Assembly: GCA_021604865.1 (NCBI GenBank)
Contig: BQJU01000028.1
Location: forward strand, 28,179-92,178
Reading direction: 5' to 3'
Source: Saprospiraceae bacterium
Lineage (GTDB): Bacteria; Bacteroidota; Bacteroidia; Chitinophagales; Saprospiraceae
DNA: 64,000 bases
A model generated the notes under the pieces. The model had not been told where the DNA came from. It saw only the letters and a program-made list of their open reading frames with translations, and did no database searches. This document shows, piece by piece, positions 2,266 to 35,320 of the stretch; position 1 is the stretch's first letter, and each line of letters starts with the position of its first letter. The translations under genes were made by a program, and so were the position numbers.

Positions 2266-2328
2266 AGGGAAGGAATTTTTCATGCTAAACCTGCTCTGAA
2301 TACAGCGTCATCTGATAAACCTCTAATT

Positions 2329-4683: not shown

Positions 4684-4693
4684 GTAGCACGGG

Positions 4694-4732: not shown

Positions 4733-4737
4733 GTATA

Positions 4738-4824: not shown

Positions 4825-4834
4825 ATTCCCGACT

Positions 4835-7207: not shown

Positions 7208-7218
7208 ATTTTTTACTC

Positions 7219-9672
7219 ATGTGGAAAAACTATCTAAAGATCGCCTTTCGGAATCTATTTAAGGAGAAGCTGAATAGCTTCATTAATTTATTTAATCTAT
7301 CAGTTGCCATTACTGTCGTTTTGCTCATTTTTTTATTTGTAAAAGACGAGTGGTCCTTTGACCATTTTCACAGCAAATCTGACCGGATTTACCGCAATTG
7401 GGTAAAGGAACACTACCAGGGAGAGGTTTTTTTTAATACTGTTACCCCCTTTATCCTTGGAGAGGAATTGAAGGAAAATCTTCCCGAGGTCGAATCGGTG
7501 GTGCAATACCTCACACAAACCAATGTTGTTCGGAAAGGCACTTTTAAAGATCAGGAAACCATTCATCTGGCTACTCCTTCCCTGTTAGAGGTGTTTGATT
7601 TTTCTTTGCTCAAGGGAGAACCAGACCAGGTGTTAGATAGCCCTAATAAAGTAGTGCTTAGTCCAGAAATTGCTCAAAAATATTTTGGTGATGCAGACCC
7701 CACAGGAGAGAGCCTTGATTTGCAGCTAGGTGGCGAGTGGCGGCAGTTTCAGGTCTCGGGCATCATTAAGCCGGCACCTCAGCATTCCAGTATTCAATAC
7801 GATATGCTCATTGCCTTTGAAAATGTCAAACAGCTGTTCCGGCCAGGAGCTCTAGTGAGCTGGACTACGGTTTATCCGGAAACTTATGTATTGCTTAGAC
7901 CGGGAACTGATTTGGCTTCGCTTAGCGCAAAAACAGCCAGCCTGATTGACTCCAAAGTCACCGAATCCTATGCACCGGGTGAATATATTGTTGGGTATCA
8001 ACCGCTGACTGACATTCATTTAAATAATGAAATTCCAGTAGGGATTGTGGCGGTCAGTGATTGGCGTTATCCCTATATTTTGGGAGCCATTGGCTTGTTA
8101 ATTCTGTTGCTGGCAGGTATCAATTATGTTTCTTTATCGGTTGGGCAGTCGTTGACCAGAGCCCGCGAAGTAGGGGTGCGCAAGGTAAATGGTGCCAACC
8201 GGATGCAATTGATGGTGCAATTTTGGAGCGAGACGATTTTTTTGACGGTCCTTGCTGTATTCATTGGTTTTATGTTGACTAATGTCGTTTTGCCCTATTT
8301 TAACCAACTGGCGGGTAAATCGTTAGTTTTAGAAATTGACTTTTCCATCTTTTTATTCATCGTATTGTTGACTATCGTATTGGGCCTAGCAGCAGGTTTG
8401 TACCCCGCTTTGGTATTATCCGGCTTCAGTCCATTGAAGACCCTTTACGGCAAGGTGAACAAACTTGGAACCAGCAAACATTTTTTACTGCGAACCTTAG
8501 TCGGTTTTCAGTTTGTATTGTCGGTCGGTTTGATTATTTGCACCTATATCATGCAGGAGCAAATGCAGTATTTACAAAATAAAAACCTGGGTTTTGACAA
8601 GGACCAGCTGATTAGCATTCCGTATCTGGCTACTCCAACCGCCGAAAAAGGACTGATATCGTTGTACAAAGAAGGTTACAAAAAAGGCCAGCTGTTGCAG
8701 AATGAGTTAGCGGATGAACGGGAAGTACTTGGTTTCGCAATAAGTTCACATACTTTTGGCACGCCAGGATGGGTGCAGGTTGGTTATACGGATGAAGCCA
8801 TTGATAAATACCGGGGATTTTATCTCTTGGCTACCGATTACAATTTCCTGCCGGTTATGGAGGTTGGTATGAAGCAAGGCCGTCATTTTAGTGAGGAGAC
8901 GGCTACCGATATTCAGGGAGGCGTTATCGTCAATGAAACAATGGCCAAAACTTTTGGTTGGGAAGATTATCTGGATACACCCTTACCCCCACCTTTTGAA
9001 GGCTTTCGACTAATCGGGATTACTGAGGATTTTAATTTTTCCTCTCTGCGCGAAGAAGTACAACCCCTTTTAATGACGTTGGACCCATTAGCCATCATTG
9101 GCTTAATGTCTGATATGAATTATGGGGATTTGCCGCTCCCCAAGTATACCCTAAAACTCGAAGGAGGGAATATTCCTTATACTTTGGGTAAGATAGAACA
9201 GGCCTGGCGCAAGTTAGCTCCAGACCAGCCATTTCAGTTTTCCTTTATTGATGAAGCTATTAATGCTCAATATCGGTCGGAACAATCACTCAGTAGCATT
9301 CTATCCTTTGCGACTTTACTGGCCATCGTTATTGCTGCACTTGGACTTTTTGGGATAGCTAGTATAACTGCTGCCCGCAGAACGAAGGAGATCGGTATCC
9401 GTAAAGTATTAGGGGCTTCTGTTTTGGATATTGTTTTGATGTTGAACCGTCATCTCACCGGATTGGTGGTGGTGGCAACCCTTATTGCTGCCCCATTATC
9501 CTGGCTGATTATGCGAAGCTGGTTGAAGGATTTTGCCTTTCAGGTGGGCATCAATCCGATTACCTTTGTTATTGCCGGCTTGTTGGCCCTTGCTATTGCC
9601 TGGGTGGCCGTAAGTTTCCAGGCTTTTCGTGCGGGCATGGCTAGTCCAGTGGATAGTTTGCGCAGTGAATAG
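7219..9672 (+). CDS. FtsX/MacB-like ABC transporter permease (817 aa)
   Basis: Inner-membrane double-FtsX permease. TM1 is at about 18-42 and is followed by the segment DEWSFDHFHSKSDRIYRNW, which is conserved in all the paralogues. The MacB-like periplasmic domain comes next, then the first FtsX unit (about 287-400) with AREVGVRKVNGANRMQL. The second periplasmic domain is somewhat longer than in its neighbours. The last FtsX unit (about 690-817) has TKEIGIRKVLGAS and the end is SPVDSLRSE. It starts 11 bases after the preceding gene. Its stop codon lies 2 bases from the first of two tandem dyads, which suggests that the transcription unit ends here and a new one begins with the ATPase. Confidence 0.95.
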   Translation: MWKNYLKIAFRNLFKEKLNSFINLFNLSVAITVVLLIFLFVKDEWSFDHFHSKSDRIYRNWVKEHYQGEVFFNTVTPFILGEELKENLPEVESVVQYLTQTNVVRKGTFKDQETIHLATPSLLEVFDFSLLKGEPDQVLDSPNKVVLSPEIAQKYFGDADPTGESLDLQLGGEWRQFQVSGIIKPAPQHSSIQYDMLIAFENVKQLFRPGALVSWTTVYPETYVLLRPGTDLASLSAKTASLIDSKVTESYAPGEYIVGYQPLTDIHLNNEIPVGIVAVSDWRYPYILGAIGLLILLLAGINYVSLSVGQSLTRAREVGVRKVNGANRMQLMVQFWSETIFLTVLAVFIGFMLTNVVLPYFNQLAGKSLVLEIDFSIFLFIVLLTIVLGLAAGLYPALVLSGFSPLKTLYGKVNKLGTSKHFLLRTLVGFQFVLSVGLIICTYIMQEQMQYLQNKNLGFDKDQLISIPYLATPTAEKGLISLYKEGYKKGQLLQNELADEREVLGFAISSHTFGTPGWVQVGYTDEAIDKYRGFYLLATDYNFLPVMEVGMKQGRHFSEETATDIQGGVIVNETMAKTFGWEDYLDTPLPPPFEGFRLIGITEDFNFSSLREEVQPLLMTLDPLAIIGLMSDMNYGDLPLPKYTLKLEGGNIPYTLGKIEQAWRKLAPDQPFQFSFIDEAINAQYRSEQSLSSILSFATLLAIVIAALGLFGIASITAARRTKEIGIRKVLGASVLDIVLMLNRHLTGLVVVATLIAAPLSWLIMRSWLKDFAFQVGINPITFVIAGLLALAIAWVAVSFQAFRAGMASPVDSLRSE

Positions 9673-9709
9673 TGTTCGATAATGAACACTTCCTGTTCAG
9701 AAATGGACA
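9671..9709. promoter_or_regulatory. Two tandem operator-like dyads before the ABC ATPase gene
   Basis: Two 16-bp dyads share the architecture TGTTC-N6-GRACA: 9673-9688 (TGTTC/GAACA, extendable to 7-bp arms at 9671-9690) and 9694-9709 (TGTTC/GGACA). Their centres are 21 bp apart, close to two helical turns, as expected for cooperative binding of a dimeric regulator on one DNA face. They lie 106-142 bp upstream of the ATPase start. The regulator is unknown. Confidence 0.55.
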
Positions 9710-9775
9710 AAAATAGCTAGGTGAATCATTTGGAAATTGTTTTTAAAACACTGATATTCAGTGGTGTATAATTAA

Positions 9776-9790
9776 TGGCATAGATATTGG
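9776..9790 (+). promoter_or_regulatory. Possible sigma-54-like -24/-12 element (weak)
   Basis: TGGCAT-N5-TTGG resembles the sigma-54 consensus TGGCAC-N5-TTGC. The spacing and the GG are right, but the near-invariant C of the -12 GC is a G. It lies 24 bases upstream of the ATPase ATG and downstream of the tandem dyads, which would fit an enhancer-binding regulator. A 6-bp dyad, CACTGA-TAT-TCAGTG, lies just upstream at 9749-9763. Confidence 0.25.
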
Positions 9791-9814
9791 TTTATTAGGT
9801 AAAAAAAGCAATCA

Positions 9815-10519
9815 ATGATAAAATTAATCGACCTCGAAAAATCTGTAAGGACTGGCTTGAATAGAGCCTGGATTCTCAATCAGGTCAATCTGGAAATTAA
9901 GGCCGGCGAATTTGTCACCATAATGGGGCCAAGTGGAGCAGGGAAAACGACTTTGCTAAATATCATCGGTATGCTGGAATCTCCTACGGGAGGCGAGTAT
10001 CACTTTCTTGACGAGCCGGTACACCGCCTCAATGAGCGTAAACGGCACGACATCCACAAACAATATATGGGTTTCGTTTTCCAGGCTTATCATCTGATTG
10101 ATGATTTGACGGTTTATGAAAACATTGAAACACCCCTGTTATACCGCAATGTAAAGGGGAAAGACCGGAAAAGCATCGTGGCAGATATTCTGGACCGATT
10201 CAGCATTGTCGCCAAAAAAGACCTGTTTCCCGATCAGTTGTCTGGTGGTCAACAGCAATTGGTTGGCGTGGCCCGGGCCGTGATCCACAAACCCAGACTA
10301 TTGCTGGCTGATGAGCCTACTGGCAACTTACATAGCAAACAAGGGGAAGAGATCATGGAATTATTCCGCGAACTCAATGAAGAAGGCGTGACCATCATCC
10401 AGGTAACCCATTCCGAAAAGAATGCTGAATATGGAAGCCGCATTATTGAAATCGTAGACGGGAATATCCGTACTGATGAACAAGTTCGAAAATCTGCCAG
10501 TGTTTACGGCACAAAATAA
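9815..10519 (+). CDS. ABC transporter ATP-binding protein, MacB/LolD type (234 aa)
   Basis: Cytoplasmic ATPase that drives MacB-type permeases. All motifs are intact: Walker A GPSGAGKT (38-45), Q-loop FQ (89-90), signature LSGGQQQ (142-148), Walker B LLLADEPTG (162-170) and the switch histidine in VTHS (H199). The length is normal for the LolD/MacB ATPase family, and the FVFQAYHLIDDLTVYENIE stretch is typical of it. It is the only ATPase in an array of six permeases, four upstream and two downstream on the same strand, so it probably serves several of them. Upstream dyads suggest it is regulated separately. Whether the system exports a lipoprotein, a lipid or a peptide cannot be read from sequence. 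Confidence 0.96.
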   Translation: MIKLIDLEKSVRTGLNRAWILNQVNLEIKAGEFVTIMGPSGAGKTTLLNIIGMLESPTGGEYHFLDEPVHRLNERKRHDIHKQYMGFVFQAYHLIDDLTVYENIETPLLYRNVKGKDRKSIVADILDRFSIVAKKDLFPDQLSGGQQQLVGVARAVIHKPRLLLADEPTGNLHSKQGEEIMELFRELNEEGVTIIQVTHSEKNAEYGSRIIEIVDGNIRTDEQVRKSASVYGTK

Positions 10520-10832
10520 AAACTGACCCGACAGTCACTAAAAGTAAAAAAAGAAATCACCGAATTTTTAAAATCAACCACCCGACAAAACCCATTTAAG
10601 GAAGGCTCAACAGTTTCGGTTTTATAATCATTCTATGAATCCGGGAACTGTTGAGGTAACCTTAAACAAGCGCTTAGCAATTGAAATTTTCCCGACTGTT
10701 TTTTTACCATCCGTGTATGATTGACAATGGACTTTGAGAGATGTTTGGCGGCCAATTTTTTGGCGGTAAAACCCGACCGACCTTCAAATATGATGATGCT
10801 CTGAACAAGTTCTTTAAGAATCAAATTAAATT
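10520..10832. other. Intergenic region with a spaced 10-bp inverted repeat
   Basis: This 313-base gap inside the transporter array holds no convincing gene. A perfect inverted repeat, CTCAACAGTT (10606-10615) and AACTGTTGAG (10646-10655), encloses 30 bases that also pair in part (CGG/CCG). A small dyad, GAAC-AA-GTTC, is at 10803-10812. A 63-codon frame on the minus strand (10633-10824) has no recognisable similarity. Confidence 0.5.
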
Positions 10833-13217
10833 ATGATACATCATTATTTAAAGACGGCTCTACGTGGGCTAAGTCGTCAAAAAGGTAATAGTTTTTTGAA
10901 TATTGCTGGCCTGGCTCTTGGCCTTTTAGTCAGCATGCTGATGTTTCTATGGGTGCAGGATGAATTGGGTTATGATCGTTTCCACAAAAACGAAGCCCGG
11001 ATTTTCCGCCTGCACAACCTGATGAACGAAGGTAATGGCGCTATTTCCAATTGGCAAGGCACCCCCGCTCCTTACGCAAATGTGTTGCGGGAAGCATTAC
11101 CTGAAATAGAAAACGTTACCGCTTTGGGTACCTGGAGCCATAAGCTAATAGTGGATGAAAAATCCTTCCTGGAGCACGGGGCTTATGCTTTTCCCTATAT
11201 ATTTGATGTGTTTAGTTTTGATTTTTTGGAAGGGGATCTGGGAAATGCATTTTCCGATCCCAATTCTATTGTTTTATCCGAAAAGCTGGCGGCTAAATTT
11301 TTTGGCATCAACTGGCGAGAGGAAGGCAGGACCATTGGGCAAAGTATCGCATTAGAGGATGGACAGCTTTTGAATGTGACCGGCGTTTTTGCAGATATTC
11401 CCAGACAATCGACCCTGAATTTTGACTACCTGATTCCCATCGATAATCTGGAGAAAAAATATCCCGGATCACTTACACAATGGGGCAGTTTTAATTTTGA
11501 TATGTACTTTTTGCTGTCTAAAGGGGCCGACCCTAAAAAGACTGCTGATAAAATGTACCAGATTATCAAGGATAATACCCAAGGAGGTTATCCCGAACAC
11601 GGTATGTTTCTTCAACCATTGAAAGACCAATACCTTTATTCCAAATTTGAAAATGGCAAACCTGTAGGTGGCAGAATTGATTATGTGCAGATATTTTTTC
11701 TGGCGGCACTTTTTGTGCTCTTTATTGCCTGCATCAATTATATGAACCTCACCACTGCCCGTTCTTCTCAGCGAGCCCGGGAAGTGGGCGTTCGCAAAGT
11801 AGTCGGGGCTCCCCGTAGTAAGTTGGTCAGCCAATTTATTACCGAGGCACTATTAACCACCTTTCTGGCTGGGGTATTGGCTTTGATTGGCGCCCAGTTT
11901 TTGTTGCCTTATTTTAATACCCTAACAGGAAAAGAAATTTTAATTGATTTTTTAGATCCGGGTAATCTCTTGTTATTTACCGGCTTTCTGACGGTAGTAG
12001 GCGTATTGGCCGGCAGTTATCCGGCGCTGATGATGTCTTCCTTTGATATCATCAAAATCCTCAAAGGCAAACTGACCAACAAATGGGGTGCCGTTCAATT
12101 GCGCAGGCTGATGGTCATTATGCAGTTTACCCTTTCCATGCTGTTGCTCATTGGTGCTATTGTGGTACGCGGACAAATCAATTACCTCAAATCTGCTGAT
12201 CTGGGCATGGATAAAAAAAATGTTGTGTTTTTTCCACTCTCTGAAACACAGAGAGAAAAATTAGACCTTTTTAAAAATGAACTAAGCCAACAACCCAACA
12301 TCGAAGTAGTGACGGGAAGTGATTCAAATCCACTGCGGATCAATAGTATGACCGGTGATCCAGTATGGGAAGGAATGACGGATGACCAAAGGGGGATTTT
12401 TAATATCATTATCACAGACCATCAATTTTTAAATATCCTGAAAGTCCCGCTGATAGCCGGTGAAAATTTCCGCAAAGAAATGACCGTTGACACAACTAAT
12501 ATGGCATACATCATCAACGAAGAAGCTGCCCGCACAATGGGACTGGAATCACCTATTGGGAAAAAACTGTCTTTTTGGGGAGACGAGGGGCGTATCATTG
12601 GCGTAGTAAAAGATTTTCATTTTTCTTCGCTCCACCAACCTATCAAGCCGCTGATTTTGCGGTATGATCCGGAAGGAGGGAATAACCTGATATTGATTCG
12701 CCCCAAGGATGGTCAGACGGAGGCTGCTCTTGCCGAACTTCAAACGACCTTTCAGAAGATCTCTGGTGGCGAAACGGTTGCCTACGAATTTCTGGATCAG
12801 CTATACGAAAAGATGTATAAAAGTGAGGAAACCACCAGTGATCTGGCCGATTTGTTTGCCGTCATTGCACTCATTATCTCCTGTTTGGGGTTGTTGGGCT
12901 TATCTGCCTTTTTAGCCGAAAGGCGCACCAAAGAAGTGGGGATTCGCAAAGTGCTGGGGGCCTCAGTGGGCAATATTCTCATGTTGCTCAATAAAGAATT
13001 CGGTCAGTTATTATTAATCGCCTTTCTCACAGCAGCCCCTTTGGCCTGGTATCTCCTGCGGGCTTGGTTGCAGAAGTTTGCCTATCACGTAGATATTGGA
13101 TGGCAAATGATCCTGGTGGCTGGGTTGATCATGGGGTTGACGGCGGCCCTGACCGTGAGCTTTTATACCCTACGTTCAGCATTGCGTAATCCGGTGAAGG
13201 CATTGCGGTATGAGTAA
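10833..13217 (+). CDS. FtsX/MacB-like ABC transporter permease (794 aa)
   Basis: Inner-membrane double-FtsX permease, the fifth of the array and the first after the ATPase. TM1 is at about 18-42 and is followed by QDELGYDRFHKNEARIFRL and the MacB-like periplasmic core. The first FtsX unit starts at about 287 and carries AREVGVRKVVGAPRSKL. A helix lies at about 430, then a second periplasmic core with the typical IIGVVKDFHFSSLHQPIKPL segment, and a last FtsX unit with TKEVGIRKVLGAS. It ends NPVKALRYE, the same tail as the permease at 2329, and the two are similar throughout, which suggests a relatively recent duplication. A 66-base gap precedes the next permease. Confidence 0.95.
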   Translation: MIHHYLKTALRGLSRQKGNSFLNIAGLALGLLVSMLMFLWVQDELGYDRFHKNEARIFRLHNLMNEGNGAISNWQGTPAPYANVLREALPEIENVTALGTWSHKLIVDEKSFLEHGAYAFPYIFDVFSFDFLEGDLGNAFSDPNSIVLSEKLAAKFFGINWREEGRTIGQSIALEDGQLLNVTGVFADIPRQSTLNFDYLIPIDNLEKKYPGSLTQWGSFNFDMYFLLSKGADPKKTADKMYQIIKDNTQGGYPEHGMFLQPLKDQYLYSKFENGKPVGGRIDYVQIFFLAALFVLFIACINYMNLTTARSSQRAREVGVRKVVGAPRSKLVSQFITEALLTTFLAGVLALIGAQFLLPYFNTLTGKEILIDFLDPGNLLLFTGFLTVVGVLAGSYPALMMSSFDIIKILKGKLTNKWGAVQLRRLMVIMQFTLSMLLLIGAIVVRGQINYLKSADLGMDKKNVVFFPLSETQREKLDLFKNELSQQPNIEVVTGSDSNPLRINSMTGDPVWEGMTDDQRGIFNIIITDHQFLNILKVPLIAGENFRKEMTVDTTNMAYIINEEAARTMGLESPIGKKLSFWGDEGRIIGVVKDFHFSSLHQPIKPLILRYDPEGGNNLILIRPKDGQTEAALAELQTTFQKISGGETVAYEFLDQLYEKMYKSEETTSDLADLFAVIALIISCLGLLGLSAFLAERRTKEVGIRKVLGASVGNILMLLNKEFGQLLLIAFLTAAPLAWYLLRAWLQKFAYHVDIGWQMILVAGLIMGLTAALTVSFYTLRSALRNPVKALRYE

Positions 13218-13283
13218 ATACTGGCCAACCCTGTAGCTGTTTTGAAAAATGAATAAAAAAGCCCATTTCAATAAGAGCGTACC

Positions 13284-15704
13284 ATGTGGAAAAATCATAT
13301 AAAAATAGCAGCTAGAAAACTGGCAAAGTCAAAATTGAATACGGCTATCCATGTTCTTGGATTATCGATTGGTATCGCCTGTTGTTTTGTCATTTTTTTG
13401 TTTGTCCAATACCACCTGCAGTTTGACACCCAATATCCTTATGCAGACCGGATATACCGGGTCGGCTTGATCAACCAGGAGCCGGAGGTACTGAACTACG
13501 GAGGCAATACCCCCTACGTCATGGGAGCCGCTATGCGTAATGAATTCCCCGATATGGAAAAAGTAGGGAGTCTGCATATCGATGGTGAAGCGACCATTCA
13601 AAAATCGGATGGCGAAAAATACAAAGCTGAGGTCTTATTTGCTGACGGCGATTTTTTCGACATCTTTGATTTTAAGGTATTGGAAGGTGATGCTTCTACT
13701 GCTTTAAACCTGCCGAATCAAGCGGTTATCACCAAGAGTCTGGCCGACAAAATCTATTCCGGCCAAAAAGCCATTGGGCAGACGATAAGCCTTGGCGGCA
13801 AATTGAATTTAACCATTGCTGCAATTATGGAGGATTTGCCAAAAACTTCCCATTTGCAGGGCGAACTGATTACCTCTTTTACTTCTTTTACAACGGACTA
13901 TTTCGGGATCGATGTAGATTCTTGGGGCACCACACTTTCGGGATGTACTTATGTCCGGCTGGGGCCAAATGAATCGCCAGACCGATACGAAGCCGGGCTT
14001 AAAGGTTTTGCTAAGAAATATTTGACCTCTGAAGAAGAAGAAACCAATATAGAACTCTACTTACAACCATTGGCTGATATCCATTTTGATCAGCGATATA
14101 CTGCTGGAGGAACCCGCCCTTCAATCAATCCGTTATACTTGTGGTTTTTTTCTGGATTGGGAGCTTTAATCCTACTGGTAGCCTGTATCAATTTTATCAA
14201 TCTTTCTACCGCACAGTCTGTGCAGCGGGCCCAGGAGATTGGTATTCGTAAAGTGGTTGGAGCACAACGCAGGCAACTGATTGGCCAATTTCTTGGGGAA
14301 ACCTTCCTGGTCACTGTTCTTTCCGTTTTCCTATCCGTTTTAATGGTGGAATTGATGTTGCCCTATTTTAATGCCTCTTTTGATTTGCCACTTCAGGTTG
14401 ATTATATAGCCAATCCGAGCCTGCTGGTATTTTTTCTATTATTGACTCTGTTTATAACCATTCTTGCCGGATTATATCCTGCGGTAGTTATTGCCCGATT
14501 CCGACCGGTGCTGGCTATTAAAACGGGTATGGCACAAATGGGACGGGGCAATAGCTGGATGAGAAAAGGTCTGGTCACTGTTCAGTTTTGCATATCAACC
14601 TTATTGGTGATCGGATCTTTGGCAATTGGTCAACAATTACATTTTGTTCAACAAAAAAGCCTTGGATTTGACCAGGATGCCATTCTGGTAATGGATATTT
14701 CGAATAGGGAAAAACTAGCATCTTTCCGGGAACAGTTGCTGGCAGATCCCAATATTAGTGCCGTTTCCTTTTCATTGGGCGCGCCAACTTCTTCGAATAA
14801 TATTAGTAGTAGTCTGTATCGTTCTCCTGAGGATAAGGCGGATTGGGTAAAAGTGGCACTTAAGACCGTTGATGGTAATTATTTTGAAACTTTTGGTTTG
14901 CAAATGGCAGCCGGGCGTCCACTCAACCCTGACGACCAAAGAAAAATGGATCAGGCTGGTGATGATGCCAAAGATTTTCCTTTTGTGATTAATGAAAAAT
15001 TGGCACAAAAGCTTGGATTTGCACAGGCTACTGATGCTTTGAATCAAACATATACCATAGGGGTTAATGACATTCGTGGAAGGATAGTGGGCGTTGTCAG
15101 GGACTTTAATATGCATTCCCTGCATCAGGAAATTATCCCCCTAATTATGTTTCCCTATAAAGACCTATATTTTCGAGCGGGTATTAAGGTTAAAACCAGT
15201 GACCTTGAATCTACATTGACACATATTGAGCAGAAATGGGAAAAATTTAACCCCGGACAGGTTTTTGAGTATGATTTTCTGGATGAAAATATCCGTCAGT
15301 TGTATGAATCCGAAACGCGATTGTTGTCCCTGTTTGGCGTTCTTTCTGGAATGGCCATATTGATTGCCTGTCTAGGTTTGTGGGGGTTGATTACTTATAT
15401 TACCCAACAGAAAACCAAGGAGATTGGGGTGCGTAAAGTATTGGGTGCTTCTGTGATGCAGATTATCAATTTGCTTTCCAGAGAATTTTCGGGGTTGGTG
15501 ATTTTGGGATTTCTGCTGGCAGCACCTATGGCCTATTTTGGGTTGAGTCGCTGGCTGGACAATTTTGCCTATCACATACAATTGAGTATAGGTTTATTCC
15601 TATTTGCGGGATTAATGGTTTATCTGCTTGCTTTATTGACCGTTAGTTATCAGTCTTACCGGGCGGCAATGGCGAATCCTGCAGAGGCTTTGAGAGCGGA
15701 GTGA
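13284..15704 (+). CDS. FtsX/MacB-like ABC transporter permease (806 aa)
   Basis: Last permease of the main array, with the same plan: TM1 at about 18-43, a MacB-like periplasmic domain, and an FtsX unit at about 285-400 with AQEIGIRKVVGAQRRQL. A helix follows, then a second periplasmic domain containing IVGVVRDFNMHSLHQEIIPL and a final FtsX unit with TKEIGVRKVLGAS. It ends NPAEALRAE. The ATG start (MWKNHIKIAARKLAKSKLN) parallels the starts of the sister genes. Its stop is followed by a hairpin shared with the convergent T9SS gene, which marks the end of the operon. The substrate is unknown. Confidence 0.95.
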   Translation: MWKNHIKIAARKLAKSKLNTAIHVLGLSIGIACCFVIFLFVQYHLQFDTQYPYADRIYRVGLINQEPEVLNYGGNTPYVMGAAMRNEFPDMEKVGSLHIDGEATIQKSDGEKYKAEVLFADGDFFDIFDFKVLEGDASTALNLPNQAVITKSLADKIYSGQKAIGQTISLGGKLNLTIAAIMEDLPKTSHLQGELITSFTSFTTDYFGIDVDSWGTTLSGCTYVRLGPNESPDRYEAGLKGFAKKYLTSEEEETNIELYLQPLADIHFDQRYTAGGTRPSINPLYLWFFSGLGALILLVACINFINLSTAQSVQRAQEIGIRKVVGAQRRQLIGQFLGETFLVTVLSVFLSVLMVELMLPYFNASFDLPLQVDYIANPSLLVFFLLLTLFITILAGLYPAVVIARFRPVLAIKTGMAQMGRGNSWMRKGLVTVQFCISTLLVIGSLAIGQQLHFVQQKSLGFDQDAILVMDISNREKLASFREQLLADPNISAVSFSLGAPTSSNNISSSLYRSPEDKADWVKVALKTVDGNYFETFGLQMAAGRPLNPDDQRKMDQAGDDAKDFPFVINEKLAQKLGFAQATDALNQTYTIGVNDIRGRIVGVVRDFNMHSLHQEIIPLIMFPYKDLYFRAGIKVKTSDLESTLTHIEQKWEKFNPGQVFEYDFLDENIRQLYESETRLLSLFGVLSGMAILIACLGLWGLITYITQQKTKEIGVRKVLGASVMQIINLLSREFSGLVILGFLLAAPMAYFGLSRWLDNFAYHIQLSIGLFLFAGLMVYLLALLTVSYQSYRAAMANPAEALRAE

Positions 15705-23332: not shown

Positions 23333-23379
23333 TTACATTTGCAAAAGTGAAAGATACCCATTACTTTTACATTTGTAAA
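23333..23379. promoter_or_regulatory. Probable PadR autoregulatory operators with -7-like boxes
   Basis: The perfect dyad TTTACA-TT-TGTAAA (23366-23379) lies 10 bases before the padR ATG. A near copy, TTACA-TT-TGCAA (23333-23344), lies 34 bp upstream, centre to centre. Each contains TACATTTG, matching the Bacteroidota -7 box TAnnTTTG, so binding would occlude the promoter. PadR repressors commonly control their own operon. Confidence 0.6.
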
Positions 23380-23389
23380 TCATATAGTA

Positions 23390-23728
23390 ATGGAAAGAAT
23401 TTACCTTGGAGAGTTTGAAGAATTAGTCCTGCTGGTTGTAGCTGCCTTACAGGGGGAAGCCTATGGTGTAGGTGTAATGGAGGCACTTGAAAAACAGGCA
23501 AACAGATCTGTAAATATTAGTGCCGTGCATGCCGCTCTCCGCAGGTTGGAGGCAAAAGGTTTTGTCCAATCGGAATGGAGTGAGGCCACTGCGGAGCGGG
23601 GAGGTAGACGGAAGCGTCTTTTTAGTATTACCCAGGAAGGAAGTCTGGCGCTTGCTCAAGTCCGTGATGTACGGTTTAATTTATGGAAACAGATTCCAGG
23701 TTTTACGTCAAACCTTTCCTTTTCATGA
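23390..23728 (+). CDS. PadR-family transcriptional regulator (112 aa)
   Basis: Cytoplasmic winged-helix repressor, as a dimer. It has the PadR core: LGEFEELVLLVVAAL (helix 1), EAYGVGVMEALE, the recognition region NISAVHAALRRLEAKGFV, and the wing with RGGRRKRLFSITQEG, followed by a short C-terminal helix. The length is typical of subfamily 2. The stop codon overlaps the start of the next permease gene in ATGA (23725-23728), so the two are translationally coupled. Dyads immediately upstream are probable operators. It likely represses this two-gene operon in response to an unknown ligand or stress. Confidence 0.92.
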   Translation: MERIYLGEFEELVLLVVAALQGEAYGVGVMEALEKQANRSVNISAVHAALRRLEAKGFVQSEWSEATAERGGRRKRLFSITQEGSLALAQVRDVRFNLWKQIPGFTSNLSFS

Positions 23729-26379
23729 AAAAGACCAATAATCACCCTCCCAAATGGGCAGATAAATTTCTGGAATGGTATTGCAAGCCTGAATTGCTGG
23801 AAGAGATCCAGGGCGACATTTATGAATTGTTTTATAATAGAATTGAGGAAGGTGATTCTAAGGAAGCCCGTCGCCGTTTCGCCTGGGATGTTTTACGTTC
23901 TTTAAGATTGTCTACAATCAAAAATTTCAACTTAAAGTTATCACCCATCATGTTAAGAAGTAATGTCAAAATTGCTTTCCGCCATTTGCTGAAGCAAAAA
24001 CAATATTCTTTTATTAAAATTGGCGGTTTTGCTCTGGGCATTGCCGCTTGTTTATTGATTTCTCTCTTTATCAGGGACGAGCTCAGTTATGACCTTCAAT
24101 ATCCGGATGTTGATCGCATTTATAGGGTTATTGGACAATTTAATGATGATGGAAAAATAGAAAAAGGCGTTCATTTTCCTGCGCCTTTCGGCGATGTATT
24201 AGAATCCGATTATCCGGAAGTAGAGTTGTCGGGGCGCTTTAATTCCAGCGAACTTTTTGGAGCGGGTGCCAATGAGTTGAGGGTAGAAGGTGAAATGCAA
24301 AATTTCCACGAAGATGGGTTCGTTTTTGCTGACCAGGAATTTATGGAACTATTGGACATACCTATGGTATATGGAGATGTAAAACACGCGCTAGCTCAAC
24401 CCCATTCCATTGTCATTTCCAAAAGTAAAGCCGATAAATATTTTCCCAATGAGAATCCCGTGGGGAAACATTTAATTTTAAATAATGATGAAGAAAATGC
24501 TTATAAGATTGGTGGAGTAATGGAAGATTTTCCAGCCACATCTCACCTTCATTTTGACTTTTTGATGACCATGACCCAAGTGGAATTCTGGCCAGGAGAA
24601 CAGACTTTTTGGCAAGCAAACAATTACCACACTTATATCAAGGTACGCCCTGGTGTTGATGCGGCTCAGCTTGAGAAAAAGATGCTGGCCATTATTGATG
24701 ATTATATCATTCCGAGTGAGATAGAAGCGGGTTCAACAAATATCGAAGAAAATGCCAGAAAAGCAAGTTTTTACTTGCAGCCATTGCGCGATATTCACCT
24801 TAGATCCGAGGGGATATTTGACCGTTTAAACCATGGAGATATCCGTTTTGTTTGGTTGTTTGGTGCCATAGCGATCTTTATTTTGCTTATTGCCTGTATC
24901 AATTTTATCAACCTTTCCACGGCTAAATCAGCTAACCGTGCCAAAGAAGTTGGTCTGCGCAAAGTTCTGGGATCTGTTCGAGGTCACCTGGTCAATCAAT
25001 TCCTGATCGAATCTGTATTATTTAGTTTGTTTTCCTTTATTATAGGTGTGCTATTGGCTGGTCTGGTGCTTCCGTTTTTTAATCAATTAGCAGACAAATC
25101 GTTAAGCTTTCCATGGCATGAATGGTGGTTTGTTCCCCTGCTTTTGGTGTCAACGTTAGTCGTGGGGCTTTTTGCAGGATTATACCCCTCCTTTTATTTG
25201 TCGGCATTTAGACCGATTGATGTGTTGAAAGGAGACCTCAGTAGAGGAAGCAAAAGTTCAGGTATGCGTAATGCACTTGTCGTTTTCCAATTTACCACTT
25301 CTATCATCCTGATTATCGGTACGTTTATCATCTATCGTCAGATGGATTTTATTCTCAACAAAAAACTGGGGTATGAAAAAGAACAGGTGTTGATCCTTGG
25401 AGGAGCTAATACCCTGGCAGAAAAGGAGTCCACCTTTAAGCAGGCTTTATTACAATTGCCACAAGTGAAAAGTGCTTCTCTAAGTGATTTTTTGCCCATT
25501 CCCGGTACAAAAAGAAATGGCAATGTTTTTTGGCGGGAAGGAAAAACTAAAGAAGAAGATCCTATCTCTGGCCAGATCTGGCAAGTCGATCATGATTACC
25601 TCAAGACTATGGGTATGAATATTGTAGAAGGAAGAGATTTTTCTGTTGATTTGGCTTTGGATTCACAAGCGGTTATTATCAATCAGGACATGGCAAAGAG
25701 ATTGGCCCTGGATGAACCTATTGGCAAACGTATCACCAATTCTTCGAACGTCTGGGAAATCATTGGAGTCGTTGAAGATTTTCATTCAGAATCGATAAGA
25801 GATGATATTCGACCACTTTGCATGGTTATTGGCAATAACACGACTTCCCACATTGCTGTCAAAGTAAATACCACTGACATGCCGGGATTGATTAAGAGTG
25901 TTGAGGGTATCTGGGATAGATTTTCTCCAAATCAGAATATCAGGTATACTTTCCTGGACGAGAGTTTTGCTACCATGTACGCCGATGTACAGCGGATGGG
26001 GCGAATTTTTACGAGCTTTGCTATCCTGGCTATCATTGTTGCCTGTTTAGGTTTATTTGGGCTTTCTGCTTTTATGGCTGAGCAGCGAAGTAAAGAAATC
26101 AGTATCCGTAAAGTATTGGGGGCCTCTGTGAAAAGTATTATCCGTTTGTTGACACAAAGTTTTCTGACGTTGGTCTTAATATCCCTGCTTATTGCGATAC
26201 CACTGGCCTGGTACGTTATGCAAAAGTGGTTGGAGGATTTCGCCTACCACATCACGATTAGTTGGGATGTGTTTGTTCTGGCAGGATTAATTGCTATTGT
26301 GATTGCTTTAGCGACCATCAGTTTTCAGGCTATACGTACAGCGACGGCTAATCCGGTAGAGGCTTTACGGAAGGAGTGA
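23725..26379 (+). CDS. FtsX/MacB-like ABC permease with N-terminal prefix domain (884 aa)
   Basis: The seventh double-FtsX permease of the window, separate from the main array. It differs by an N-terminal soluble prefix of about 70 residues (PPKWADKFLEWYCKPELLEEIQGDIYELF, then ARRRFAWDVLR), known as a permease prefix domain in PadR-linked transporters. TM1 follows, then a MacB-like periplasmic core, FtsX unit one with AKEVGLRKVLGS, a second core, and FtsX unit two with SKEISIRKVLGAS. It ends NPVEALRKE. I start at the ATG at 23725, inside the ATGA overlap with padR, because an upstream alternative at 23683 would lie deep in padR. There is no dedicated ATPase beside it; it may borrow the one at 9815 or another encoded elsewhere. 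Confidence 0.92.
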   Translation: MKKTNNHPPKWADKFLEWYCKPELLEEIQGDIYELFYNRIEEGDSKEARRRFAWDVLRSLRLSTIKNFNLKLSPIMLRSNVKIAFRHLLKQKQYSFIKIGGFALGIAACLLISLFIRDELSYDLQYPDVDRIYRVIGQFNDDGKIEKGVHFPAPFGDVLESDYPEVELSGRFNSSELFGAGANELRVEGEMQNFHEDGFVFADQEFMELLDIPMVYGDVKHALAQPHSIVISKSKADKYFPNENPVGKHLILNNDEENAYKIGGVMEDFPATSHLHFDFLMTMTQVEFWPGEQTFWQANNYHTYIKVRPGVDAAQLEKKMLAIIDDYIIPSEIEAGSTNIEENARKASFYLQPLRDIHLRSEGIFDRLNHGDIRFVWLFGAIAIFILLIACINFINLSTAKSANRAKEVGLRKVLGSVRGHLVNQFLIESVLFSLFSFIIGVLLAGLVLPFFNQLADKSLSFPWHEWWFVPLLLVSTLVVGLFAGLYPSFYLSAFRPIDVLKGDLSRGSKSSGMRNALVVFQFTTSIILIIGTFIIYRQMDFILNKKLGYEKEQVLILGGANTLAEKESTFKQALLQLPQVKSASLSDFLPIPGTKRNGNVFWREGKTKEEDPISGQIWQVDHDYLKTMGMNIVEGRDFSVDLALDSQAVIINQDMAKRLALDEPIGKRITNSSNVWEIIGVVEDFHSESIRDDIRPLCMVIGNNTTSHIAVKVNTTDMPGLIKSVEGIWDRFSPNQNIRYTFLDESFATMYADVQRMGRIFTSFAILAIIVACLGLFGLSAFMAEQRSKEISIRKVLGASVKSIIRLLTQSFLTLVLISLLIAIPLAWYVMQKWLEDFAYHITISWDVFVLAGLIAIVIALATISFQAIRTATANPVEALRKE

Positions 26380-30928: not shown

Positions 30929-31981
30929 ATGAAAAAATTAATTTGTGTGATATTGGCTACCGCCCTTTTTACTGGGCTGGGAGCGCAGGATTTTTTGATA
31001 ACCTTGGCAGGGGATACTTTGCGCGGAGCTATTTTTGAAATCCCTAAGCCTAATGGTATGGAAATAACCATTAAAATGCCTGATGGCAAAAAAAGGATTT
31101 TGACTCCTGAAGAGATAATCGCTTATTCCATTGAAGGCAAACGATACGAACCCTTTTCCATTGAAGGTAAAAACCTCCCTAAACAAGTCTTCTTTCAATG
31201 TCACCTCAAAGGAGAGGTAAGCTTTTATTCCAGTTATGATGTAAAAGGTGCTGTAAATCAATTTTACCTACGCATGGAAGAAGGGGACCTGGAAGAGTTG
31301 AAGCCGGAGGAAGCCGTCGTGAAAAACACTTGGGAGGATAGTGGATATAAAGGCCTGGCCCAAGTTTATTACAATGTTTTGCGCAGAGGGTTTAAAGCCT
31401 GCCCGACCATACTGCCCACCCTGCCTGACTATCAATATTCGCTTAGGAGTTTTACAAAAGCCTTCCTGGCCTATTATGAGTGTGTGAATCAGTCATATCA
31501 GGATTTTAGTGTAAAGAAAACCTCGAAACGCCCGGAATTGGCCATCTATGCTTCGCTGCACCAACCTTTGTTAGCTGAAGCGGAAAGAGATCTTGGATTT
31601 TCAGCGAATATTGGGTTTGATATTGGGGCTTATGCCAATTTTTTTATTTTGGGAAGCCAAAACAAACTCATTTTTCAATTAAATGTGGTGTATACTTCTT
31701 TATCATTTAAAAATGCAGACAGCAGAATAACTGCCGCAGACTTCCTCAACGAAAAATATGTCCACTTTCCCATCTTAATGCTTAAATATTTTCAAATTGG
31801 AAGCCTTAATGTCCACACCGGAGCAGGGGTAGATATTATTGCCAAGAAAGAAGTGCTTAATGGATTGATGGTTTCTACAGGAATAGATTTTGAACTGAAG
31901 ACTATTAAAATGGTCTCCTTTATAAGAGCCAGATTTTTGAGCGGCGCTAGTTTACATTTTGGATTGGGGGCAGCATTTTAG
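30929..31981 (+). CDS. Exported protein with putative outer-membrane beta-barrel C-terminus (350 aa)
   Basis: I do not recognise a named family. A signal peptide (MKKLICVILATALFTGLGAQ) is followed by a beta-rich domain (DFLITLAGDTLRGAIFE, then KMPDGKKRILTPEEIIAYSI) of a type seen at the N-terminus of Bacteroidota outer-membrane proteins. A cysteine pair lies in the middle. The C-terminal about 140 residues alternate hydrophobic and polar residues, with glycines and a terminal aromatic (FGLGAAF), which fits a small barrel inserted in the outer membrane. Its last codons overlap the formal start of the RHS fragment by 23 bases; that overlap probably reflects a recombination junction rather than a designed operon. 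Confidence 0.7.
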   Translation: MKKLICVILATALFTGLGAQDFLITLAGDTLRGAIFEIPKPNGMEITIKMPDGKKRILTPEEIIAYSIEGKRYEPFSIEGKNLPKQVFFQCHLKGEVSFYSSYDVKGAVNQFYLRMEEGDLEELKPEEAVVKNTWEDSGYKGLAQVYYNVLRRGFKACPTILPTLPDYQYSLRSFTKAFLAYYECVNQSYQDFSVKKTSKRPELAIYASLHQPLLAEAERDLGFSANIGFDIGAYANFFILGSQNKLIFQLNVVYTSLSFKNADSRITAADFLNEKYVHFPILMLKYFQIGSLNVHTGAGVDIIAKKEVLNGLMVSTGIDFELKTIKMVSFIRARFLSGASLHFGLGAAF

Positions 31982-33083
31982 TACTTGTTTGTCATCAAAT
32001 CCGACCTCCAAACAAGCACTGAGACTTGCATCAGCCCCTGGGCCACGTTACGAATTTGCGCTGAGAGATCACTTAGGGAATACCCGAATGGTGTTTTCCG
32101 ATCTGAATGGTGATGGAGGTATTCGGGTATCTGTCAACCCTGAAGTGAATGAATTGATTCAGGAGCACCATTATTATCCATTTGGAATGGAGTTTGAGGG
32201 GCCTTGGACGGTGCATCTGCAAAAGGAACTTGCTTACCAGTATAATGGCAAGGAATTGAATGAGGACTTGGAGTTGGGGTGGTTGGATTATGGGGCGCGG
32301 TGGTATGATCCGGCGGTTGGACGGTGGAATGCGGTCGATGCTTTAGCTGATGATCCAAATCAAGTTGATAAATCTCCTTACGCTTATGCTTGGAATAATC
32401 CTGTTAACTTGACAGACCCTGATGGTAATTGTCCTTCATGTCTTATAGGAGCGATTGTTGGAGCCGGCTTGGATTATTCAATTCAAGTAGCTATTAATCG
32501 TGCTGAGGGACAAAGTTGGGGGGATTCCTTTACTAAGGTAGATGGCAAATCAATAGCAATCTCGGCTATTGCAGGAGCGACAGGAGCTGGTTTATTAGGT
32601 AAGACTTCTAAATTGTTAGACCCTAAAACAAGACGAGCTGCCGAAATGGCTATTGATGCCTCTGTGAATGTAGGAACACAGATTGCTCAGAATGGTGAAG
32701 TCGATTTAAGAGAGACAGGATTAGCTGTGCTTACAGGGCAAGCTGTTAGGACTCCTTCCAGAGATAAAATAAAGGAAGTTGCTCAAGAAACGACAGAACA
32801 ACTCAATCAAAAAGTTGATGATGCTGGCAAAGCATTGAGCGCTGCCCAGAGAAAAAACAGGCCCGGTTTAGATCCCGCAAAAGCTGAAGCACGAACGGCT
32901 CCTCAAAAGCAGAGGTTAAAAAATGCACAGGGAGCAAGAGTCTCTCATATAAGGGCTACTAATGCAAATGCCGCAGCTGTTGGCGCGTCTTCTTCAGGAG
33001 TAACACAACGTTTAATTAATAGTCTACTTCCAAATGCTGGACCAACTTACAATTTCTCTGAACATCCTTATGTAAAAAAATGA
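31959..33083 (+). CDS. Orphan RHS-core C-terminal tip, 5'-truncated, candidate polymorphic toxin (374 aa)
   Basis: The conserved RHS/YD-repeat-associated core is present only from ALRDHLGNTRMVFSDLNGDG onward, with HHYYPFGMEFEG, YNGKELNEDL, GWLDYGARWYDPAVGRW and NPVNLTDPDGN. The hundreds of residues of YD repeats and any signal peptide expected upstream are missing. After the core comes a glycine/alanine-rich hydrophobic linker (GAIVGAGLDYSIQVAINRA) and a variable C-terminal region (about 250-374) with no recognised fold, in the place where polymorphic toxins sit. The formal ATG at 31959 lies inside the previous gene, and a start at 32089 (MVFSDLNG) is also possible. The stop overlaps the next start codon in ATGA. 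Probably a displaced tip rather than an autonomous secreted protein. Confidence 0.7.
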   Translation: MDWGQHFSTCLSSNPTSKQALRLASAPGPRYEFALRDHLGNTRMVFSDLNGDGGIRVSVNPEVNELIQEHHYYPFGMEFEGPWTVHLQKELAYQYNGKELNEDLELGWLDYGARWYDPAVGRWNAVDALADDPNQVDKSPYAYAWNNPVNLTDPDGNCPSCLIGAIVGAGLDYSIQVAINRAEGQSWGDSFTKVDGKSIAISAIAGATGAGLLGKTSKLLDPKTRRAAEMAIDASVNVGTQIAQNGEVDLRETGLAVLTGQAVRTPSRDKIKEVAQETTEQLNQKVDDAGKALSAAQRKNRPGLDPAKAEARTAPQKQRLKNAQGARVSHIRATNANAAAVGASSSGVTQRLINSLLPNAGPTYNFSEHPYVKK

Positions 33084-33433
33084 GTAGTTTAAATATGTAC
33101 ATTAATAAAAAGTGGCTTTTTTGGATAATACTTTTGGGAGTATTCTCTTCTATCTTTTATGGGGTAGATAAAGGGTTATATTGGACTACTATTTTTGCTG
33201 TTGGTTCAGTCTTTTTGTACACCTCATATAAAATTGCTGATCGTTTTTTCTTTGAACAGACAAATTGGAGGTTCAAGGCCACTAAGTATGAGCTCTTTTT
33301 GTTATTTATTTCAATTGGAACTTCATTCGTAATTGGAGAGAGCGTTCTAGTTGTAGGGTATCTATTATTGAGCGGCTTATTGTTAATATTAATAATTAAT
33401 TTGATTAGTTTTATTCAAGCAAGATACTTTTAG
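33080..33433 (+). CDS. Small membrane protein, candidate immunity protein (117 aa)
   Basis: Four predicted helices (LFWIILLGVFSSIFYGV; TIFAVGSVFLYTSYKIA; LFLLFISIGTSFVIGES; VVGYLLLSGLLLILIINLISFI) with a basic segment, RFKATKYE, between the second and third. There is no known domain. The ATG overlaps the RHS tip stop codon by four bases, so the two are translationally coupled. Immunity genes of polymorphic toxins typically sit in this position, and membrane immunity proteins usually counter toxins that act on or cross the inner membrane. The role is inferred from context only. Confidence 0.65.
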   Translation: MSSLNMYINKKWLFWIILLGVFSSIFYGVDKGLYWTTIFAVGSVFLYTSYKIADRFFFEQTNWRFKATKYELFLLFISIGTSFVIGESVLVVGYLLLSGLLLILIINLISFIQARYF

Positions 33434-33519
33434 GAAAAGATGCCTACTTGTGGAGTCAGCGTGGTTCGTCTTACAACCTAGCTCGTGAGATTAAACCTTC
33501 AGAGTCTTCTATGAAATAG
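33434..33519 (+). pseudogene. Possible leftover C-terminal coding fragment of a displaced tip
   Basis: Directly after the small membrane gene, the frame reading GKDAYLWSQRGSSYNLARE ... SSMK ends in TAG at 33519. It has protein-like composition and no start codon, and an in-frame stop lies a few codons upstream. It may be the tail of an older tip left by recombination. Weak evidence. Confidence 0.25.
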
Positions 33520-33526
33520 TAATAAA

Positions 33527-33607
33527 AAAGCCACCTGTCCAAGTCCCGGTCAGGTGATTTTGAGCATATCAGGCATAAGCCTGTCGAGTTTTAGCATCCC
33601 GAATATA
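33527..33607. repeat. 81-bp direct repeat flanking the second RHS unit, copy 1
   Basis: Matches 35123-35203 at 74 of 81 positions without gaps. It contains CACCTG/CAGGTG arms around TCCAAGTCCCGGT, which pair in this copy but not in the other, and CAGGC-ATAA-GCCTG. Confidence 0.85.
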
Positions 33608-33678
33608 AGTATCAATCAAGTCGTAGAGAATTTTCCCTGCTGTCGGTAGTATGACTGAGCACATGTCGATCGATACCG

Positions 33679-33705
33679 CACTTCGGCGTTGGTAACGCCG
33701 AAGTG
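33679..33705. terminator. Perfect 12-bp hairpin with 3-base loop
   Basis: CACTTCGGCGTT and AACGCCGAAGTG pair perfectly around GGT. GC-rich and followed by GGGACTTTCG. It could be a terminator or an element end. It lies between the 81-bp repeat and the point (about 33776) where RHS-core homology resumes. Confidence 0.5.
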
Positions 33706-33821
33706 GGACTTTCGCTCCCGAGTTGTGGTGTAGTGGTCCCTCAATTTAAATCTTTATATTTTTGTAGGGTCCCCGCCTGGTTTTCTCCGATCTGAATGGC
33801 GATGGAGGTATTCGAGTATCT

Positions 33822-34760
33822 GTGAATCCTGAAGTAAATGAAGTGATTCAAGAACACCATTATTATCCATTTGGGATGGAATTTGAGGGGCCTTGGACAG
33901 TGCATCCTCAAAAGGAGATGGCCTACCTGTTTAATGGCAATGAAGCAATGAATGAAGTTGGTAATAGAGTTTATGATTTCAATTTCCGAACCTACGATGG
34001 GGCCATAGGACGGTATTATCAGACTGACTTATTATCAGAGTGGGCTTCGAGTTGGACGCCGTATAGATTTGGATTTAATAACCCTATAAATTATTGGGAT
34101 CCATTGGGTCTTTTTGAATCAAGACGGGACGCAAGACGACATAGAAGATCTGAAGGCGTAAAAGGGAGAGTGAGGAAGCAGGAGGATGGAAGTTTTGCAA
34201 TTGTCCATAAAGGTAGTGATGGTAAAATCAAGACGTATAATGATGAAGAATTTGGTGTTGTAACAGAATTTACCTACTCTCAAATACAATATCCTCAAGG
34301 CACAATCAAATCGCGTGAGCCCAATTTTTTTGAGAAAGTAAAGGATCGCGGTTTTTTAGGTCTTATGACTTATAATATAGCCAATGATGCCTGGTTAACA
34401 GCTCAGAGATTTAACCCTTTCGATACGCATACTACTCATTTATCTGGGGATTATGCTTCCAAAAATGAATATACTATGAGTTTTGTTAACACCGTTGCAA
34501 CAGTGGTTCCAATAGGACGTGCTACTTCAACTGTTAGGGTTGTTGCGCCTCAAGGGTTAACTATTGCACAAAGGCTAAATGCTGCTCAGTATAGTAAATT
34601 CTTTAAAGGTACTTCTTTGGCAAGAATGCATCCCAAAACTAGAGGGCGTTTAAATCGTTTGATGAATACGGGAATCGACAATGTTAATAAGAACGTAGAG
34701 ACAGGTAATATTCTTTTCACGCCCGTCAAATCAGCGGGTAAAGCAGTAAATAAGGAGTAA
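33822..34760 (+). CDS. Second orphan RHS-core C-terminal tip, candidate polymorphic toxin (312 aa)
   Basis: Homology to the first tip starts abruptly near 33776 (CTCCGATCTGAATGG), and the DNA is nearly identical for about 150 bases through PFGMEFEGPWTVH. It then diverges: YLFNGNEAMNEVGNRVYDFNF, YDGAIGRYYQTD and GFNNPINYWDPLG complete a different core subtype. The C-terminal about 215 residues (ESRRDARRHRRSEGVKGRVR onward) are unrelated to the first tip, as expected for polymorphic toxin ends. No YD repeats or signal peptide remain. It ends in TAATG, overlapping the start of another small membrane protein. The formal ATG at 33822 is probably not a native start. Confidence 0.7.
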   Translation: MNPEVNEVIQEHHYYPFGMEFEGPWTVHPQKEMAYLFNGNEAMNEVGNRVYDFNFRTYDGAIGRYYQTDLLSEWASSWTPYRFGFNNPINYWDPLGLFESRRDARRHRRSEGVKGRVRKQEDGSFAIVHKGSDGKIKTYNDEEFGVVTEFTYSQIQYPQGTIKSREPNFFEKVKDRGFLGLMTYNIANDAWLTAQRFNPFDTHTTHLSGDYASKNEYTMSFVNTVATVVPIGRATSTVRVVAPQGLTIAQRLNAAQYSKFFKGTSLARMHPKTRGRLNRLMNTGIDNVNKNVETGNILFTPVKSAGKAVNKE

Positions 34761-35014
34761 TGGATTTAATAACAGAATTCTTTGTAGAAATATTTTTCCG
34801 TAGACTTATAGTTGGCTTTTTTGGGTATTATACTTTATTTTTTATCTATAAACTCTTCAGACACAAAAGAGGATTAGAATGGTTAGAGGCTATTAATAAT
34901 AGTGAAGGAGAAGAGTTTGGCAAAGGATGTTTAGTAGCAATCATCGGACTTATTTCTTTCAGTTCACTTTTTATACTGATAGGAGTATTATATGGCTTGA
35001 TCTTCAATCAATAA
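34760..35014 (+). CDS. Small membrane protein, second candidate immunity protein (84 aa)
   Basis: Two or three hydrophobic helices (RRLIVGFFGYYTLFFIYKLF and VAIIGLISFSSLFILIGVLYGL) are separated by an acidic loop, LEAINNSEGEEFGKG. Its start overlaps the stop of the second RHS tip by one base (TAATG). It is not similar to the 117-aa protein after the first tip, which fits specific toxin-immunity pairing. No database family is recognised. The role is inferred from position. Confidence 0.6.
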   Translation: MDLITEFFVEIFFRRLIVGFFGYYTLFFIYKLFRHKRGLEWLEAINNSEGEEFGKGCLVAIIGLISFSSLFILIGVLYGLIFNQ

Positions 35015-35320
35015 TCACAAAAAGCCTCTCTCGCTGGCCCCATGTCTTCCCCCCACCGTTTCGCTCGTGAGGTTTTCCAAACCGACACGCAATGGCTGCA
35101 AATCTCCAGATTTGCATATCTCAAAGCCACCTGTCCAAGTCCCGGTCAAATGCCTTTGAGCCTATCAGGCATAAGCCTGTCGGGTTTTAGCATCACGAAT
35201 ATAGGTAAGACTTTTGATTATCAGGTAGTTATCGCGAAACAACGCTATTAGACTAGGATTGAGGTTACGACCTCGCCAACCGTGGGTATTGGGGCCGCAA
35301 CCTCCTTCATTTATCACCCC
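35015..35320. other. Intergenic end of the RHS island
   Basis: Contains an 8-bp hairpin, GCAAATCT-CC-AGATTTGC (35098-35115), and the second copy of the 81-bp repeat. A 69-codon frame at 35042-35251 runs through both and looks spurious. It ends at the convergent PfpI-like gene. Confidence 0.55.
35123..35203. repeat. 81-bp direct repeat flanking the second RHS unit, copy 2
   Basis: Ungapped partner of 33527-33607 (7 differences). The two copies bracket the segment that contains the second tip and its small membrane gene. Confidence 0.85.

Follow-up and report, generated by a model that had tools for sequence, protein, structure and literature searches.

We analysed a 64,000-nt stretch of DNA (the window) from Saprospiraceae bacterium (GenBank assembly GCA_021604865.1, contig BQJU01000028.1, positions 28,179 to 92,178) that contains two orphan C-terminal fragments of Rhs (rearrangement hotspot) genes, which we call tips T1 and T2, each followed by a small gene for a predicted membrane protein (I1 and I2; Table 1). 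An earlier note on this DNA had read the two pairs as orphan tips forming candidate toxin-immunity cassettes, and our analysis supports that reading in part. The explanation that we favour, and think rather probable, is that the displaced tips and their small membrane-protein genes are silent toxin-immunity cassettes, from which recombination in the core with a full-length Rhs gene would yield inner-membrane toxins. The tips would be silent in place and the small proteins made; recombination in the common Rhs core would join a tip to a full-length Rhs gene; and the predicted target of the resulting toxin is the inner membrane of a nearby cell. The tips' own ends would be toxic, and I1 and I2 protective.

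Both tips keep the Rhs core, as the earlier note had claimed: the TIGR03696 (Rhs_assc_core) model matches T1 with 60.8 bits and T2 with 43.1 bits (cut-off 32.5), and the core terminates in a DPxG-type motif in each (DPDGN in T1, DPLGL in T2). Protein alignment between the tips is limited to residues 59-156 of T1 and 1-96 of T2, and because it stops there we regard their ends as unrelated, again as had been proposed. The DNA that they share had been described as nearly identical for about 150 bases; in fact positions 32083-32255 pair with 33772-33944 at 86% identity over 173 bp, and the same segment is 86-93% identical to copies on contigs C32, C34 and C133 (the window lies on C28). An evident start is lacking in both tips: the T1 frame is open from 31941 and the T2 frame from 33768, the codons TTG at 31959 and GTG at 33822 are merely the first possible starts, and the first in-frame ATGs (32088 in T1, 33876 in T2) both lie within core DNA. 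By eye, neither T1 nor T2 has a signal-like N-terminus.

The start codons of the small genes overlap the stop codons of the tips just as described before (ATGA at 33080 for I1, TAATG at 34760 for I2). I1 and I2 match each other through short hydrophobic stretches alone (best E 0.44, in a set of nine sequences), in agreement with the claim that they are unrelated. Their description as multi-helix proteins holds for I1, which has two hydropathy segments above threshold, and is weak for I2, which has one.

Relatives of the tips and their own ends

Phaeodactylibacter xiamenensis (Saprospirales) has an orphan tip that shares 65% identity over 281 aa with T1, in the part between the late core and the C-terminus, and behind that tip too lies an I1 homologue (35% identity over 110 aa), so the proposed coupling of a tip to its own small gene is kept in this species for the T1-I1 pair. 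Genome G646, a member of the family to which the window's genome belongs, has the same sequence as P. xiamenensis at the tip. Remoter relatives of the T1 C-terminus (CT1) occur in Geofilum, Aquiflexum, Pleomorphovibrio and two metagenome assemblies; for example, in Pleomorphovibrio marinus (locus L073) a CT1-like end is part of an Rhs frame of 1322 aa, with a protein of four hydrophobic segments and more tips encoded 3′ of it. CT1 was found in 7 of the 298 genomes of a family sample, its own included, and besides its own the only near-full match was in G646. For the T2 C-terminus (CT2), 14 matches comprised 11 homologues at 48-59% identity (P0002-P0012), CT2 itself, and two proteins that match only in the prefix defined below. 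CT2 matches were present in 2 of 395 genomes of the phylum (its own and one matching 33 residues) and in 11 of 398 genomes of the family (own included, several of them prefix-only), and in one genome, G664, a frame of 2742 aa has a CT2-type end. A search of viral contigs and plasmids, with CT2 as the only query, found no relative.

The earlier note had allowed that the ends might be degraded, with stops in relatives. The CT1 and CT2 relatives that were read are open frames, and between CT1 and its P. xiamenensis relative (213 codons) the differences at codon positions 1, 2 and 3 are 0.277, 0.197 and 0.643, a pattern that fits purifying selection. The corresponding values for I1 and its homologue in that species are 0.451, 0.354 and 0.646 (113 codons). 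From Pfam, NCBIfam, Rfam and solved structures, no family could be assigned with confidence to the ends, I1 or I2, consistent with the earlier statement that no known toxin was recognisable. Matches to XopAE, ATP synthase b, acylphosphatase and 6-phosphogluconolactonase were rejected as far under their cut-offs.

On shuffle tests, the C-termini of T1 and T2 each consist of a common prefix plus an own end, because the ends alone match some relatives and not others. Residues 231-374 of T1 by themselves beat 200 of 200 shuffles against five of the seven CT1 relatives (L069, L070, L071, L072 and L073) and fail against L074 (13 of 200 shuffles reach the score) and against L084 (52 of 200), a tip with the T1 prefix and another end. 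Similarly, residues 240-312 of T2 alone beat 200 of 200 shuffles against L091, L092 and L097, and do so for none of the nine tips or proteins in this set whose ends differ. Two proteins, P0013 and P0014, match T2 only up to residues 154 and 152, and L100 has another end with a GIY-YIG resemblance of 17.8 bits, under the cut-off of 22.6. The borders of the own ends are approximate; gapped alignments of low identity extend to residue 323 between T1 and L084 and to residue 277 between T2 and L101, where 123 of 200 shuffles reach the score of the T2 own end. The end of T1 lies close to the range first given for it (250-374), and that of T2 is far shorter than the 95-312 given before.

The kind of neighbour tracks the end of a tip, not its prefix, and for this reason our comparison supports membrane-acting toxins. 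If the own end sets the task of the neighbour, a tip with the same prefix and a different end would be expected to precede a different kind of protein. We took the longest open reading frame (ORF) of at least 55 aa starting between −45 and +150 behind each of 20 tips, with tip classes from the shuffle test. A hydrophobic segment beyond residue 25 is present in 9 of the 10 neighbours of tips with the same end and in none of the 10 neighbours of tips with another end (Fisher p 0.0001; because the tips are related and the rows not independent, all p values here are a guide only); the one exception in the first class is L097, behind which there is no small gene. Counting a segment anywhere in the protein, the figures are 9 of 10 and 2 of 10 (L074 and L098; p 0.005). 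Hand-set classes had earlier given 9 of 11 and 0 of 9 (p 0.0003), and the shuffle test then shifted L074 to the other class; L090 was excluded, its contig ending inside the tip. As the earlier note had suggested, the own ends of T1 and T2 probably act at the cell membrane.

Rhs cores and a flank element across the genome

Six more orphan core copies, as well as a repeated flank element, were absent from the earlier note. Across the 7.97-Mb assembly of 161 contigs, the core model matches nine places: eight orphan copies on five contigs (two each on C28, where they are T1 and T2, on C32 and on C34, and one each on C103 and C133) and one in a 2849-aa Rhs frame on C18, whose core is absent from the DNA-search matches listed. 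The first C32 tip carries Toxin-JAB1 (27.5 bits, cut-off 21), a third tip-like frame on that contig has just the first 47 bases of core DNA, and the core fragments on C103 and C133 have no proper C-terminal end. C32 starts inside a tip, C103 stops inside one, and the first 300 bases of C28 look Rhs-repeat-like by eye.

The shared core had been called a recombination platform, and the many copies, the common junctions and the tips behind a full-length gene all speak for this. That gene belongs to G018, a genome of the same family: its Rhs frame of 2218 aa, whose N-terminus looks signal-like by eye, has four tips behind it on the same contig (L117). In the window's genome, the leader before T2 (33672-33818) is shared with C32:3425-3571, where the end differs (147 bp, 99.3%), and a second junction between places with different ends joins C32:1490-1823 and C34 (334 bp, 89%). 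Because these junctions are common to places with different ends, some cassettes seem to have been relocated as tips already truncated. A relative matching both flanks, as an empty-site comparison would need, was looked for and not found. With the long-Rhs body of P. marinus as query, we obtained no match in the window's own genome, 18 in G018 and one in G646. Other tip series are present in G018: the core is matched nine times at L118, over eight or nine frames, and four times at L119. The leader itself contains, at 33672-33770, a perfect 12-bp stem (CACTTCGGCGTT/AACGCCGAAGTG), and 33660-33770 folded as single-stranded DNA has a z score of −5.1.

The flank element is hairpin-rich and about 180 nt long, and we divide it into blocks A and B; block B follows the T1-I1 pair and both blocks follow T2-I2. 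Folded as single-stranded DNA, 35060-35209 has z scores of −4.2 and −6.0 on its two strands, and the other copies tested have −1.5 to −4.2. On C34, two copies of the element (384 bp aligned, 88%) enclose a toxin gene of ParE type (24.6 bits, cut-off 23) and an unassigned neighbour gene, and the next copies enclose DUF4160 and DUF2442 genes. These bracketed genes sit between or beside Rhs tips (positions 5199-8787 of L044, which is C34:34000-50000). A ParE gene adjoins the P. xiamenensis tip too (35.0 bits) and, by eye, the same is the case in G793. On C103 (L045, 6784-7070) the core borders directly on block A, a junction that has no C-terminal end and looks like loss of the C-terminus and its neighbour, and a lone block A lies between unrelated genes on C6.

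These arrangements would allow a more far-reaching idea, in which the flank element is a cassette boundary and, together with the Rhs core, would let this genome gather, exchange and lose toxin-immunity pairs and ordinary toxin-antitoxin modules in headless series that have no resident full-length Rhs gene, the two pairs here being new membrane-toxin families carried in this way. We hold this to be doubtful. On a plainer view, the element may have travelled along as the former 3′ end of an Rhs operon, terminator included. An integron reading was not adopted, because the three tyrosine recombinases that we found are on C36, C29 and C132, none of which is an orphan-core contig, and because no integron-type core motif was seen by eye at the flank element.

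Table 1. Features of the two tip loci, in window coordinates.
Feature	Position	Strand	Remarks
Dispersed short repeat	31983-32026	.	just 3′ of the upstream gene; Rhs-derived DNA starts soon after
Tip one (T1)	31959-33083	+	orphan Rhs C-terminal fragment
Core DNA common to T1 and T2	32083-32255	+	173 bp, 86%
Rhs-associated core of T1	32172-32426	+	residues 72-156; TIGR03696
T1 prefix	32427-32648	+	residues ~157-230; common to L084, whose end differs
T1 own end, candidate toxin	32649-33080	+	residues ~231-374; shuffle test
I1, predicted membrane protein, candidate immunity for T1	33080-33433	+	117 aa; ATGA overlap with T1
Flank element block B, after T1-I1	33527-33634	.	90-92% to three C34 copies and one C32 copy
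Leader before T2	33672-33818	+	99.3% identity to C32:3425-3571; first 47 bases of core DNA
Tip two (T2)	33822-34760	+	orphan Rhs C-terminal fragment
Rhs-associated core of T2	33861-34112	+	residues 14-97; TIGR03696
T2 prefix	34113-34538	+	residues ~98-239; partly in tips with other ends
T2 own end, candidate toxin	34539-34757	+	residues ~240-312; shuffle test (beats all shuffles against L091, L092 and L097, not against ten tips or proteins with other ends)
I2, predicted membrane protein, candidate immunity for T2	34760-35014	+	84 aa; TAATG overlap with T2
Flank element blocks A and B, after T2-I2	35026-35207	.	90% over 182 and 177 bp to two C34 copies

The dispersed repeat upstream of T1 includes a short inverted repeat (by eye) and has near-identical copies in the genome, at least 24 of the 41 matches listed (query positions 12-68), a number that is a lower bound, 40 of 228 candidates having been scored. 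Elsewhere in the window, judging by eye from the starts of ORFs, six consecutive ORFs of about 750-820 aa at positions 1-15704 resemble permeases of the FtsX/MacB type, and an ABC ATPase-like ORF lies among these; at 23351-26379 a PadR-like ORF precedes a further long ORF.

Readings of the tips and their neighbours

Several observations weigh against silent cassettes of membrane-acting toxins. We found no full-length Rhs gene with this core in the assembly, an absence that is not safe because the ends of three contigs (C28, C32 and C103) lie in Rhs DNA. An ORF of at least 60 aa starting between −45 and +30 stands behind 25 of 37 surveyed tips and is missing at the other 12 (six have none and at six it starts farther off), and L097, which has a CT2-type end, has no small gene behind it. 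I2 is similar in size and place to the small membrane proteins behind L091 and L092, with which it shares 28% and 17% identity. L074, initially classed as having the same end, fails its shuffle test, and by eye no Rhs sequence lies within about 6 kb of two I1 homologues in genome G468. Structure models of the ends have mean predicted local distance difference test (pLDDT) scores of 39.8 and 42.5. Profile comparison gives a hint in favour, a relation of CT1 to the pore-forming toxin Tse5: CT1 and its relatives match the Tse5 C-terminal chain with a borderline E-value of 0.0026. Against it, the match weakens to 0.048 for a CT-only profile including L084, it falls mainly in the T1 prefix, outside the own end, and T1 alone gives no Tse5 match at E 10.

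Of the alternatives, the one that survives best, which we still judge unlikely, is that these are immunity-only modules, whose small membrane proteins guard against the Rhs toxins of neighbours, the tips being passengers. It would account for the lack of an evident start in the tips and for the AAGGAG directly 5′ of the ATG of I2, and it has a parallel in Escherichia coli EC93, which according to extracts of PMC3150448 makes an orphan immunity protein and apparently not the orphan toxin. The earlier note had named small proteins without tips as a point against toxin-immunity pairs, and such genes do exist in part: among four I1-type loci at E <1e-10 in 398 genomes, two are behind a tip (in G000 and G646, the sources of the queries) and two, the G468 homologues, are not. 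This count leaves out four of the eight rows, whose E-values are 5e-4 to 9e-4; three of them lie in frames of 424-463 aa and one contains stops. I1 as query against 5.8 billion proteins found itself alone, which says little because the known P. xiamenensis homologue was missed. Against mere passengers stand the purifying selection on CT1, which a passenger would soon lose, and the CT1- and CT2-type ends that are also found on long Rhs frames. The tipless I1-type proteins of G468 are at 6728-7084 of L132 and 5847-6272 of L133, and the latter matches DUF2985 with 20.8 bits, just under the cut-off of 22.

Less probable again is a different target, with pairs that look membrane-bound through their prefixes or small proteins and ends that are enzymatic, in the cytoplasm or on the envelope. 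The models of the ends gave no fold, and the Tse5-like stretch lies in the prefix, shared with L084, whose end and neighbour differ; against this reading, 10 of 10 prefix-sharing tips with other ends have neighbours with no hydrophobic segment beyond residue 25. That the tips are functionless Rhs debris with chance small ORFs, as the core fragments without a proper C-terminal end on C103 and C133 might suggest, is very improbable in view of the open frames, the purifying selection on CT1, the T1-I1 pair conserved in P. xiamenensis and the 11 homologues of CT2 at 48-59% identity.

Comparison with known systems

Silent cassettes of this kind would have close counterparts. Orphan rhs-CT/rhsI modules of enterobacteria, occurring in series, with missing starts and with fusion to the main gene, are described in extracts of PMC3150448 and PMC3967940, so the kind of module is already known, and new here are the ends, the host group and the flank element. 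Like those modules and cdiA-CT/cdiI, the tips have a displaced C-terminus, some core DNA, no evident start, an adjoining small gene, unrelated ends, several modules per genome, and ends that occur on full-length proteins elsewhere. They differ from the modules of those extracts in their Saprospirales host, in a main Rhs gene with this core not being found in the assembly, in ends that match no catalogued toxin, and in the repeated flank element after the pairs. Judged from sequence, the T1 and T2 ends are probably new toxin families. The group was named in no title among the matches listed in a literature search for Rhs tips in Bacteroidetes or Saprospiraceae.

Three further systems invite comparison, again through extracts of the papers. 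Tse5 is pore-forming, with an immunity protein considered to reside in the membrane (PMC9637101). As in Tse5-CT/Tsi5, we see no recognised enzyme motif and predict a membrane-embedded immunity protein, and the borderline match of CT1 keeps the same motif order; Tse5 is a type VI Rhs effector, whereas here the CT1 match is weak and lies in the prefix, and VipB, as a marker of type VI delivery, was found in none of three genomes with a search whose control matched only E. coli, so that its sensitivity to Bacteroidota systems is uncertain. The ionophore toxins of contact-dependent growth inhibition (CDI) combine an entry part with a membrane-acting part that has a predicted five-helix ionophore domain (PMC11630599). 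Their immunity proteins are about 30% identical within a group, comparable to the 35% between I1 and its relative, but these toxins are carried on CdiA and not on Rhs. Lastly, Rhs tips have been reported as toxin-antitoxin systems inside the cell (PMC7043789), where, as in our candidate pairs, an orphan Rhs toxin has a neighbouring antitoxin.

Orphan Rhs modules, which the extracts cited place mainly in enterobacteria, are extended here to long series of tips in Saprospirales, and the two small candidate membrane toxins with their neighbours are suited to a simple test. The flank element provides a concrete way to ask how tip series grow; if it did mark a cassette boundary, Rhs tips and toxin-antitoxin genes would be joined in one collecting mechanism.

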